A stretch of 64,000 nucleotides of DNA from Methylophilus sp. 13. GTDB lineage: Bacteria > Pseudomonadota > Gammaproteobacteria > Burkholderiales > Methylophilaceae. The stretch is taken from positions 1 through 64,000 of the forward strand of contig NZ_JADKYR010000005.1 in NCBI RefSeq assembly GCF_015354335.1. Reading direction: 5' to 3'. The position numbers were made by a program, and so were the translations under genes. The notes under the pieces were generated by a model. That model was not told the DNA's origin, made no database searches, and saw only the letters and a program-made list of their open reading frames with translations. Positions within the stretch are counted from its first letter, which is position 1. The number at the start of each line of letters is the position of its first letter. This document shows, piece by piece, positions 38,634 through 42,046 of this stretch.

Positions 38634-39650
38634 ATGAATGTTTACTCGATGCTTAAACCTCTGCTGTTTCAACTGGATGCAGAGCAAGCACACGATATTA
38701 CTTTGCAATCGCTCAAACGTGCAGAAAAGCTCGGCCTGCTCACGCTCGCCGCCTGCCGTTTACCTGCACAACCGACGCAGGTCATGGGCCTCACGTTTCC
38801 CAACCCGGTCGGCCTGGCGGCCGGGCTGGATAAAAATGCCGCTGTGATTGACGGCATGGCCGCGCTAGGCTTTGGCTTTATTGAGGTGGGCACCGTCACG
38901 CCACGCCCGCAGCCTGGCAACCCCAAACCACGCTTGTTCCGTTTGCCACAAGCCGAGGCCATTATTAACCGCTTTGGCTTTAACAACCTCGGTGTCGATC
39001 AACTGATCCAGAATGTGAAGGCGTCCAAATTCAAAGGCATCCTGGGCATCAATATCGGCAAAAATTTCGATACGCCGAACGACCGTGCCGCTGAAGACTA
39101 CCTGAGCTGCATGCGGAAGGTGTATAACTATGCCAGCTATATCACGGTAAATATTTCCTCACCCAACACCAAAAACCTGCGCGCCCTGCAAGAAAAAGAG
39201 GCGCTGGGCCAACTGCTCGCGACGCTCAAAGCTGAGCAAAAAATCCTCTCGCAACTGCATGGCAAATATGTCCCCGTTGTGCTCAAAATCGCCCCCGACT
39301 TAACCACCGAACAAGCACAAGAAATCGCTGAACTGCTTATGCAGCACCAAATGGACGGCGTGATTGCCACCAACACTACCTTGTCGCGCGATGCTGTGGC
39401 CGGCTTGCCAAACTCGGAAGAGGCGGGTGGGCTGTCAGGCGCACCGGTAAAAGCGGGTTCTACACGCGTGATTCAAACACTGGCGGCCAGCTTGCAAGGC
39501 AGCCTGCCGATTATCGGCGTCGGTGGTATTCTGAATGGCGACGATGCCAAAGAGAAAATGGCGGCCGGTGCCAGCCTGGTTCAACTCTACAGCGGACTCA
39601 TCTATAAAGGCCCGCAACTGATTAAAGACTGCCGCAAAGCCTTGCTCTAA
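38634..39650 (+). CDS. pyrD: Dihydroorotate dehydrogenase (quinone), class 2
   Basis: 338 residues with the membrane-associating N-terminal helices ([18 protein letters not shown]) of class-2 enzymes. FMN-binding and catalytic motifs: [10 protein letters not shown] at 60-69, NRFGFNN at 112-118, and VNISSPNT with Ser175, the catalytic base of quinone-dependent enzymes. It oxidises dihydroorotate to orotate in pyrimidine synthesis at the inner membrane. Stop and next start overlap as TAATG, coupling it to a GST-like gene. Start has AAGTTCAGGAA-type purines upstream. Confidence 0.97.
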
Positions 39651-40261
39651 TGGCATTGCCCATCCTCTACTCCTACCGCCGCTGCCCGTACGCCATGCGC
39701 GCCCGTATGGCGATCTGGGCGGCAAATATTCAGGTAGAAGTGCGAGAGATTTCCCTGCGAGAGAAACCTGCGCATTTGCTACAGATTTCCCCCAAAGGCA
39801 CCGTGCCGGTATTACAACTGCCAGATGGCACCGTGCTAGAGCAAAGCCTGGATATTATGCAGTGGGCACTTGTCCAGAGCGATCCGCAAGGTTGGCTGAA
39901 TGCAGACCCTGAAGCAGTCAACGCGCTGATTACGATCAACGACGGTGACTTTAAAAAAGCGCTGGACCGCTATAAATATCCCGACCGTTACCCCGAGCAA
40001 GCACAACTGGTTTATCGCGAACAAGGTGAGCAGTTTTTGCAGAGGTTAGAAGCTGCATTAGAGCAGCATGACTATTTGCTTGGCGATTCTGCCAGCATGG
40101 CCGATGTAGCGATTTTTCCGTTTATCCGGCAGTTTGCAGCGGTCGATGCGGAGTGGTTTGCCAGCAGTCCTTATCCGAAACTGCGCATATGGTTAGAGGG
40201 GTGGTTGGAAAGCGCGCTATTTGCAGAAGTGATGCAAAAGTTTCCAACTTATATTGGATAG
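39650..40261 (+). CDS. Glutathione S-transferase-like protein
   Basis: 203 residues. N-terminal thioredoxin-like half with YSYRRCPYAMRARMA (Cys12 in CPYA), SPKGTVPVLQLPDG and EQSLDIMQW, the glutathione-binding cis-Pro and Glu-Ser motif; helical C-terminal half with FPFIRQFA. CPYA-type GSTs (glutaredoxin 2-like) act in thiol redox protection. It overlaps pyrD by one base (TAATG), an arrangement that implies shared transcription. No metabolic link to pyrD is evident. Confidence 0.88.
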   Translation: MALPILYSYRRCPYAMRARMAIWAANIQVEVREISLREKPAHLLQISPKGTVPVLQLPDGTVLEQSLDIMQWALVQSDPQGWLNADPEAVNALITINDGDFKKALDRYKYPDRYPEQAQLVYREQGEQFLQRLEAALEQHDYLLGDSASMADVAIFPFIRQFAAVDAEWFASSPYPKLRIWLEGWLESALFAEVMQKFPTYIG

Positions 40262-41092
40262 CATTTGTCAGGGAGGCTACATTTTAATGCAGCTTTCAAG
40301 GTCATTCTTTATCTCTGAGCCATTCCGGCGGTGGCGGGTATCTAGACGAGGTTAATACTTGGCTTGGTTACAATCGAGCGCCACAGCCACATTTGCTGCA
40401 AGTACTTGGAAATGTTTTTTGAACTCGAACATTCTTTTTCGCCCTAGGCGAGGTACTTTTCTTTGCTTGCACAAAGATAAAGTAACCAAAAGAAAGTGCA
40501 CCCCAGCTTCCGCTTGTTTCCTGTGCTACTCGGCTTGCCGGGCGGCCATCGAAACTCGCCCTGGCGGCTTGCATAAGACGCAAGCCACTGCGGAACTCGA
40601 ACAGCCGATGGCCGAGTGCTCCCGTCAACCCTGCGTTGCTCGGCGCGGCAGATGGGGACCCCGAACACCATGCGAGCGCAACCGTAATTTGTTTCAACAA
40701 AAGAATTGGATTTTCAAACCGTCCAAATTTTAACGATGCAACTTTGGCGAGATAAATCCCATTCCATCACGCTGAGTAGCGGAGACAAAATAAGAGTAGA
40801 GGGAGCGACTGTCCGAATCCCGCAGCAGCTCACGTAGTGTGTGAGCTGCTAGGATGAGTTTCGTGACCGGCTTATTTTGTCGAGCAACGCAAGGGAGCCG
40901 AAGGCCTTGATGGCTGGGTGTCGTCCTCTTTGGTTACTTTCTGGGGGACAAGCACCAGAAAGTAACTCGCCTAGAGGCGAAAGATGCCGTCAAATTAACG
41001 CAAAAAAGTAGTCAATAAATCATTAAAGAATAACTTTTTCTACTTTTTTGGACTGTCTCAACTTGGCAAATAAACTGCTAAATTCAGAATGA
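40262..41092. other. Non-coding stretch holding an inverted-repeat element
   Basis: About 830 bases between the GST gene and phoH without a supportable gene. Most is taken by the element at 40437-40982. Open frames inside it have no family likeness and follow the repeats. The last ~110 bases are AT-rich and lie downstream of phoH. Confidence 0.7.
40437..40982. mobile_element. MITE-like or structured repeat element with inverted ends
   Basis: About 546 bases. Ends are inverted: TTTCGCC plus CTAGGCGAG on the left (40437-40452) match CTCGCCTAG plus AGGCGAAA on the right (40966-40982), one base offset. Inside each end is a hairpin: TACTTT..AAAGTA at 40454-40484 and GTTACTTTCTG..CAGAAAGTAAC at 40933-40966. 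Further inside, GACAAAATAAG (40784-40794) is inverted at 40871-40881, and AGCAGCTCAC (40824-40833) pairs with GTGAGCTGCT (40841-40850). No transposase. Similar AAAGTAACCAAA-type elements recur in beta- and gammaproteobacterial genomes as far as I recall; other copies outside this window are likely. Confidence 0.65.
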
Positions 41093-42046
41093 TTAGTCAC
41101 TTTTTTGCGTATTCTGCTCAAACCTTTCATACGCATTAATAATCTTCTGCACCAACGGATGTCTTACCACGTCTTGGGACATAAACTGAGTAAAAGCGAT
41201 GCCTTTGACGTCTTTGAGAATTTTCTGCGCTTCTACCAAGCCACTTTTCTGGTGACGTTGCAGGTCAATCTGTGTCACGTCGCCGGTAATCACGGCTTTA
41301 GTGCCAAAACCAATGCGGGTTAAGAACATTTTCATTTGCTCGGGCGTGGTGTTTTGCGCTTCGTCCAGAATAATAAAACTCTGGTTGAGCGTGCGGCCGC
41401 GCATATAGGCGAGCGGGGCGACTTCAATTGCGCCGCGTTCGAACATTTTGTTCACGGTGTCGTAACCGGCCAAGTCATAAAGTGCGTCATAAAGCGGGCG
41501 CAGGTAGGGGTCGACTTTCTGGTTGAGGTCGCCGGGCAAAAAGCCCAAGCGTTCGCCTGCTTCTACGGCCGGGCGAACTAACACGATTCTTTTCACGCGG
41601 TCACGTGTCATGGCATCCACTGCACTGGCGACAGCCAGATAGGTTTTACCTGTACCCGCTGGGCCGATGCCAAAGGTGATGTCATGGTCTTGTATCTGTT
41701 GCAAGTAGCTGACCTGACGCGGGGTGCGACCATGCAGGTCGCCGCGGCGCGTCATCAGTACAGGCATGGCACTGCTGCTGACTTCTTCGGGTTTGAGTTT
41801 GTCGATTTCTACCAGGCCGAGTTGAATATCTTCGAGCTCAATTGGCTTTTTTGAGCGGGCGTAGAAGTTTTCCAGCATTTGCGCGCCCAGCCGCATATTG
41901 GTTTGGTTGCCGCTCAAGTAAAACGTGCTGCCGCGGCGGTTGATGTCGATATCGAGACCATTCGCCAGTTGGCGGATATTTTCATCAAGCGGGCCGCACA
42001 GGTTGGCCAGCATCAGGTTGTCTTCGGGGCTGAGGGTAATTTCCAT
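41093..42046 (-). CDS. ybeZ: PhoH-like ATPase (YbeZ)
   Basis: 317 residues. An N-terminal KH-like part is followed by the P-loop GPAGTGKTYLA at 128-138 and Walker B FIILDEAQNTTPEQMKMF, typical of PhoH/YbeZ. Proteins of this family are ATP-dependent partners of YbeY in RNA and ribosome quality control. The start lies three bases after the miaB stop: an operon. In many proteobacteria ybeY follows directly; here ybeY is 14 kb away at 55931, so the usual miaB-ybeZ-ybeY cluster has been split. Confidence 0.93.
   Translation of the reverse strand: MEITLSPEDNLMLANLCGPLDENIRQLANGLDIDINRRGSTFYLSGNQTNMRLGAQMLENFYARSKKPIELEDIQLGLVEIDKLKPEEVSSSAMPVLMTRRGDLHGRTPRQVSYLQQIQDHDITFGIGPAGTGKTYLAVASAVDAMTRDRVKRIVLVRPAVEAGERLGFLPGDLNQKVDPYLRPLYDALYDLAGYDTVNKMFERGAIEVAPLAYMRGRTLNQSFIILDEAQNTTPEQMKMFLTRIGFGTKAVITGDVTQIDLQRHQKSGLVEAQKILKDVKGIAFTQFMSQDVVRHPLVQKIINAYERFEQNTQKSD

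Follow-up and report, generated by a model that had tools for sequence, protein, structure and literature searches.

A nearly self-complementary half-kilobase repeat at gene ends in Methylophilus, oriented from origin to terminus in two genomes, with exchanged contents at sites shared between species

The element at positions 40437-40982 (+ strand) of the window, by which we mean the whole 64,000-nucleotide stretch of Methylophilus sp. 13 DNA analysed here, is a member of a non-coding, multi-copy repeat family; it is nearly self-complementary and consists of two halves in inverted arrangement, each bearing hairpins. Copies of the family sit at the 3' ends of genes, in two Methylophilus genomes they are polarised from replication origin to terminus, and copies within a genome have been overwritten, exchanged or inverted in place. 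With a probability of roughly one half, we regard it as a giant intergenic palindromic repeat that acts like an outsized REPIN or BIME and that would have spread via the lagging strand and then been rewritten by recombination.

The original prediction had placed this 546-bp element at exactly these coordinates, and its limits coincide with the ends shared by the 85 copies that we collected; the features that it described are all present in the window, namely the inverted ends, terminal hairpins containing ACTTTCT/AGAAAGT and, in the interior, an 11-bp inverted repeat (40784-40794 / 40871-40881). A genome-wide count gives about 11 copies in the element's own genome rather than a single one, i.e. 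some ten further copies with 71-86% identity besides that of the window, plus fragments; the family profile spans seven copies, counting the window's, over their full length. Among 41 genomes searched (own included), 22 had matches, comprising 19 of the 21 genomes of the same genus (none in G006 and G018) and, outside Methylophilus, two genomes of the family (G021, G022) and one of the order (G038). The family set contains 85 copies from 11 genomes, each matched end to end by the profile, 18 duplicate loci having been dropped. Most come from G008 (29), G014 (27), G010 (11) and G000 (7), the remainder from G002, G004, G005 and G011 (two each) and G009, G017 and G020 (one each), and the sample leans to copies resembling the window's, most strongly for G010, which is represented by best-hit copies only. 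All 85 begin with TTTCG and finish with GAAA, an agreement that is partly by construction, since an end-to-end match was the selection criterion.

Each half of the element consists of an outer hairpin (hp1), then a second one (hp2; GTTACTTT..AAAGTAAC, then CAAA) and then an internal one (hp3); elsewhere the two halves pair with one another, except for some 100 nt of variable sequence at the centre, which are unpaired. In the window copy, all on the + strand, the left half opens with hp1 (TTTCGCC..GGCGAG, 40437-40452) and a type I hp2 (ACTTTTCTTTGCTTG.., 40453-40486), in which columns 17-28 covary with 39-51, and continues to the left arm of a long internal inverted repeat (40550-40607) containing hp3 (40564-40588), where the strongest covariation is found, between 40564-40571 and 40581-40588. 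The variable centre, which the consensus fold leaves mostly unpaired, extends approximately from 40656 to 40760. The right half holds the other arm of the long inverted repeat (40806-40863) with its own hp3 (40824-40850), recognised by inverted repeat and covariation, as is the type II hp2 (GTTACTTTCTGG..CCAGAAAGTAAC, 40933-40966, covariation at 40944-40955), and it closes with hp1 (TCGCC..GGCGAAA, 40967-40982). The 58-nt internal arms are 71% complementary and a 26-nt end repeat (40444-40469 / 40949-40974) is 81% complementary. The strand of the window copy folds better than chance both as DNA (z = -9.32) and as RNA (z = -7.95), and none of 100 shuffles reached as good a fold in either case. 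The left end is of type I or I' in 84 of the 85 copies, while the right end is of type II in 68 and I-like in 17; as the ends differ in this manner, most copies are directional, the window copy running from a type I to a type II end, as placed by the shared ends of the 85 copies and by the copies of its own genome. A few copies with two type I-like ends have no direction.

Several variants and neighbouring sequences were seen along the way. Half-length copies of about 280 bp (L046 in G021, L112 in G008) are matched by the profile on either strand, as though half-elements could stand alone, and three copies of about 610 bp (L109 in G014, L110 and L111 in G008) have two inverted left halves and no clear direction. 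A module of about 34 bases (TAAGTCC.GCAAAG..AAAGTCCT) is inserted at the same place near the right arm in L011, L034, L182 and L105, which belong to several species. About 22 bp to the left of many type I' copies, at near-constant spacing, stands a partial extra end corresponding to profile positions 1-44 (L060, L076, L090, L092, L097, L104 and others in G014). A GTAG-type hairpin repeat (GTGGGCAT..ATGCCCAC) lies directly left of the element in 16 of the 29 G008 copies (e.g. L070, L101) and also beside copies of G000, G002 (e.g. L182), G004, G005 and G020; it precedes none of the copies in G010 and G014, where mostly other leaders stand. In the window itself, 40316-40352 (CATTCCGGCGGTGGCGGG..CGAGG) resembles CATTCCGGCGTAGACCGGAATCCAGGCGAGG, found beside G017 copies, and is perhaps another dispersed hairpin repeat, and between the element and the 3' end of the phoH-like gene (41001-41050) there is an inverted repeat (CAAAAAAGTAG/CTACTTTTTTG), similar in G007, that is perhaps a terminator. 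Complementarity between the hp2 loop and the bases behind it is enriched, being present at 27 of 84 and at 37 of 76 ends where shuffling gives means of 9 and 17; most ends lack it, and we did not use it in the interpretation.

That the element is unlikely to code for protein, as had been proposed, is supported: its three ORFs have no Pfam match, the longest stop-free frame lies on the + strand in 25 of 85 copies and on the - strand in 60, and the copy lengths are distributed 34/24/27 modulo 3. With neither a Pfam match nor a conserved frame among the 85 copies, a protein-coding reading was rejected. The stems co-vary strongly across copies, and a stable fold with covariation is what a structured non-coding RNA gene, one of the two identities suggested originally, should have; an RNA-weighted consensus fold even contains 1310 G.U against 402 A.C cells. 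That surplus has to be discounted, since such folding favours G.U on whichever strand it is given. We therefore picked pairs by their Watson-Crick fraction alone, treating both strands alike, with a 60% floor that limits the test in that it leaves out mostly-wobble pairs. Across 130 pairs and 85 copies, 10454 of 10856 cells were Watson-Crick, 139 were G.T, 128 A.C and 135 other, and 34 pairs leaned to G.T versus 27 to A.C (p = 0.44). One would expect an RNA gene to show an excess of G.U under neutral pair choice as well, so this equality speaks against it, and Watson-Crick co-changes combined with the lack of wobble asymmetry argue for pairing at the level of DNA. Rfam also returned no family at gathering score: with E up to 10, the stretch 40300-41100 gave three matches, all far below it, of which mir-5615 (40927-40966) alone falls inside the element, and the sole promoter-like site of the region, at 41063, is outside. 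The RNA gene thus appears extremely unlikely, and what the stems show is pairing kept at the DNA level without strand preference. Compensatory changes could also arise if template switching during replication copied one hairpin arm onto the other, with no selection on the fold. Intermediates are indeed few, almost every co-change being a complete Watson-Crick replacement, but this process leaves sites, ends and polarity unexplained; we give it hardly any credence as the whole explanation, and it could operate alongside the reading that we prefer.

In the window, the neighbours are a glutathione S-transferase-like gene (gst; 39650-40261, + strand) and a phoH-like gene (41093-42046, - strand), whose 3' ends face each other with the element between them. 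Using a simple ORF caller to assign gene context, we found 50 of the 85 copies between convergent genes, 22 in (+,+) and 11 in (-,-) arrangement, one between divergent genes and one unassigned, against a background of 63 convergent, 68 divergent and 224 tandem among the 355 gene pairs called in 400 kb of G014. Such a location would suit a bidirectional transcription terminator for converging genes, in which each hp1 is read inward and followed by a T-rich stretch, and there are terminator-like sites at both element ends (+ strand, 40437-40453; - strand, 40981-40966) and one more at 40909. However, the six such sites in 39600-41900 compare with 3.1 (sd 2.3) in shuffles, a weak excess, the T runs are interrupted and G.U is not preferred, and termination has no need of 546 bp of conserved structure or of replication polarity, which makes this explanation highly improbable.

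Orientation was judged by taking dnaA as the origin and the opposite point as the terminus. In the complete genomes G008 and G014, 49 of 53 clearly oriented copies run from origin to terminus (p = 7e-11), or 49 of 56 if all three ambiguous copies are counted against polarity. Convergent sites are especially informative, since transcription gives no direction there, and 26 of 29 clear copies at such sites (26 of 32 with the ambiguous ones) have the same orientation. Polarity is seen when end types alone are used (35 of 38, with 18 not called) and when the core alone is used (47 of 53, with three ambiguous). In a further complete genome, G005, 12 of 15 copies run from origin to terminus, counted by eye among the matches listed and including partial copies. 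In genus g295, where the count was also made by eye relative to dnaA, with ambiguous copies omitted and the sign not fixed beforehand, the figures are 5 of 8 (G589) and 5 of 6 (G682), the total of 10 of 14 not being significant.

Most sites are common to species. Sites of 26 of the 29 G008 copies are occupied in G014 (23 by both flanks, three by one) and those of 26 of the 27 G014 copies in G008; all 11 best-hit copies of G010 are at sites occupied in G014 or G008, and six of the seven copies of G000 at sites occupied in G014, G008 or G010. Nevertheless, orthologous copies are no more alike than other copies. When compared in the same orientation at sites where both flanks match, identity at orthologous sites versus elsewhere is 0.785 vs 0.773 for G008-G014, 0.829 vs 0.819 for G010-G014, 0.791 vs 0.793 for G008-G010, 0.765 vs 0.763 for G000-G008 and 0.740 vs 0.749 for G000-G014, and the ortholog is the best match in one of 41 cases. 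Saturation of free positions could account for part of the lost orthology signal, though not for L115 and L118, two G010 copies that are 97% identical, with the right 350 bases almost unchanged, while G014 holds other versions at both sites. Orientation changes too: of 63 cross-species site pairs with clear orientation, 54 are parallel and nine inverted (58 and 16 when ambiguous ones are included), and for each of the four clear exceptions to the polarity another genome carries a copy in the opposite orientation at that site (L086, L096 and L106 by both flanks, L089 by one).

Individual loci show how occupancy varies. We compared the gst-phoH locus in 21 genomes, 14 of which had no gst match in the stretch taken and were uninformative, save for G007 and G020, whose contigs begin inside a copy. 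Full copies are present in G000, G002, G008, G010 and G014, and the G017 copy carries a deletion. Where the element is missing, the intergenic distance is 102 bp (G018) or 163 bp (G009), and in G003 it is 282 bp and includes a perfect hp1 standing alone. At a second locus, G002, G005, G008 and G014 carry the element in parallel orientation and G010 and G020 in inverted orientation, the G013 copy has two type I-like ends, and the element is missing from G000, G003 and G009, where the gaps measure 108, 166 and 140 bp. A lone hp1 fits a deletion between the two ends, the alternative being that it is the ancestral target. Perfect lone copies of hp1 were found at two sites, both of them in G003, among eight genomes, so hp1 as a common ancestral target is unsupported; an empty site in G000 has a decayed one.

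Shared sites and polarity might also be expected of an element of chromosome architecture, in which a host protein binds the array of dyads and hairpins at gene ends in one direction relative to the fork. Gyrase, a nucleoid protein or a fork-associated factor would be candidate binders, given that the positive supercoils of converging transcription meet there, and selection would keep sites and polarity while sequence exchange would be neutral. The sites common across species, the strong enrichment between convergent genes, the polarity at convergent sites and the conserved, invariant blocks in otherwise diverged copies are all in line with this. On the other hand, species of the same genus lack the element at given sites, G006 and G018 have no match and several other genomes of the genus have 2-10 (some of these assemblies being incomplete), some copies are inverted at their site (the nine clear pairs above), and the element has no known protein partner. 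We consider this reading rather unlikely.

The second identity proposed originally, a non-autonomous transposon, holds insofar as presence varies between species. It does not hold with respect to target duplication, linked Y1 transposase and the sites, most of which are common to species. Identical flanks of 3-9 bp were found at 0 of 85 copies, and of 2 bp at two. The outer hairpins were also tried as target duplications and rejected, with 0 of 84 loop pairs identical and a direct similarity of 0.103 versus 0.126 in shuffles; their inverse similarity is 0.497 versus 0.465, a value reached by 50 of 1000 shuffles. Y1 transposases (PF01797, E 1e-3) matched in seven of 16 genus genomes searched and in none of the copy-rich G003, G004, G008 and G010, and 0 of 22 Y1 loci had the element, leaving a linked Y1 transposase unsupported. 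We found no autonomous element with the same ends among the G008 and G014 matches listed and no match in phages; two plasmid records have an end match of 57-61 bp. One record of the plasmid collection, NZ_AP026896.1 (Aeromonas caviae), measures 4.9 Mb, i.e. the size of a chromosome. MITEs such as Correia/NEMIS are short, non-coding and structured with inverted ends, and the present element is likewise non-coding and structured with terminal inverted repeats. It could then be an ordinary, now inactive MITE of a DDE-type insertion sequence, for which its several copies, internal deletion derivatives and patchy presence would also speak. Against this, membership fails for want of a target duplication, the outer hairpins are not direct repeats, no cognate insertion sequence was found and no copy flanks a transposase among the G008 and G014 matches listed, and replication polarity and exchange at shared sites would be atypical; a MITE therefore seems decidedly unlikely.

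IS200/IS605-type elements are not known to be end-to-end palindromes. In the passages of PMC6006769 that describe these single-strand transposons, they have hairpins near their ends, make no target duplication and prefer the lagging strand; the present element has the first two properties, and a lagging-strand preference would give a polarity such as the 49 of 53 clear copies show in G008 and G014. It is set apart from them in that no transposase with these ends, and in the 22 Y1 loci of the genus genomes no Y1 transposase tied to them, was found.

We return to the outsized REPIN or BIME. Founding copies would have spread as hairpin-forming single strands that the lagging-strand template exposes, a route that would produce the polarity, presumably with the help of a putative trans-acting agent, and insertions may have survived mainly at gene ends. 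Recombination between copies, i.e. gene conversion, would later have rewritten them, and deletion between the hp1 ends may at times have removed the element, leaving a lone hp1. In this reading the element is kept as DNA and homogenised by recombination, and it has probably spread via lagging-strand single-stranded DNA. It is from the polarity that we infer the lagging-strand spread, no movement step having been observed; nor was insertion in progress seen, as all 11 best-hit G010 copies occupy sites common to G014 or G008 and none is new relative to both. Folding on the lagging template only might slightly prefer G.T over A.C, and the lack of such a preference counts against this explanation, as does the failure of the Y1 transposase searches to yield the agent.

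REPINs, in the portions of PMC3116915 and PMC2817692 that deal with them, are REP doublets of about 70-110 bp with a GT[AG]G foot and RAYT (TnpA-REP) transposases. The present element resembles them as an intergenic, multi-copy pair of inverted hairpin units that forms one long hairpin, with compensatory changes, excised forms and no target duplication seen. It differs in having about 550 bp with nested hairpins, in being replication-polarised and in having most sites common to species. By eye, hp1 is preceded mostly by ..TTGCT or ..ATCTA and followed directly by hp2, and no GT[AG]G stands at the hairpin foot; a cognate RAYT flanked by the repeat was not found with PF01797 at E 1e-3 (0 of 22 Y1 loci), a cut-off that distant RAYTs may escape, and membership in REP/REPIN fails on these two counts. 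BIMEs bind gyrase and IHF. The sections of PMC2817692 and PMC2884548 on BIMEs and palindromic units of enterobacteria describe mosaic intergenic palindromes at gene ends; the location is the same here, whereas the single fixed two-ended architecture, the size and the lack of a known binding protein are different. The Bordetella BRE, another betaproteobacterial repeat dispersed through intergenic DNA and showing features of a mobile element, is, in the part of PMC3110155 describing it, about 90 bp long, tandem, 69% G+C and not co-oriented with the replication fork; size, tandem array, G+C and fork orientation thus set it apart, by description rather than by sequence. Short palindromic repeats are well studied, and in open-licence PMC papers we found no description of a half-kilobase, two-ended kind.

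Relatives with the AAAGTAACC motif elsewhere in proteobacteria had been mentioned in the original prediction, and searches with an end pattern and an end model did find them. Of 300 genomes of the order, 15 (eight of 135 genera) contain the strict end pattern, which also occurs in at least 116 stretches of a species collection, where about 0.1 would be expected by chance. The 80 matches listed include Xanthomonas, Dyella, Rudaea, Pseudoxanthomonas, Thioalkalivibrio, Methylomonas and Sulfuricella, as well as MAGs labelled Saprospiraceae, Chitinophagales, Spirochaetes, Nitrospirae and Desulfobulbus. The end model matched at least 78 of 369 genomes of the class and at least 63 of 272 genera (own included), a lower bound given the strict filters. 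Of ten loci chosen for reading, seven are two-ended palindromes (Rudaea, Pseudoxanthomonas, Thioalkalivibrio, Stenotrophobium, two Sulfuricella records and one unclassified proteobacterial MAG), and such palindromes also occur in genus g295, G404 and G446. In the Saprospiraceae, Spirochaetes and Desulfobulbus loci we saw single ends only, which makes them no more than candidate members of the family.

In practical terms, contigs break inside copies, and copies carry spurious open frames. Taken further, and tentatively, these may be inherited docking sites at gene ends, polarised by replication, whose contents of about 550 bp are swapped, overwritten and flipped, class-wide and perhaps in several phyla, with a dedicated recombination system or host chromosome organisation beneath. 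With sites shared and contents exchanged, gene conversion among dispersed repeats becomes measurable. Should the polarity extend to more genomes, the family would mark strand-specific processing of DNA at the replication fork and would permit a direct test of whether gene-end repeats are passengers or parts of the chromosome.
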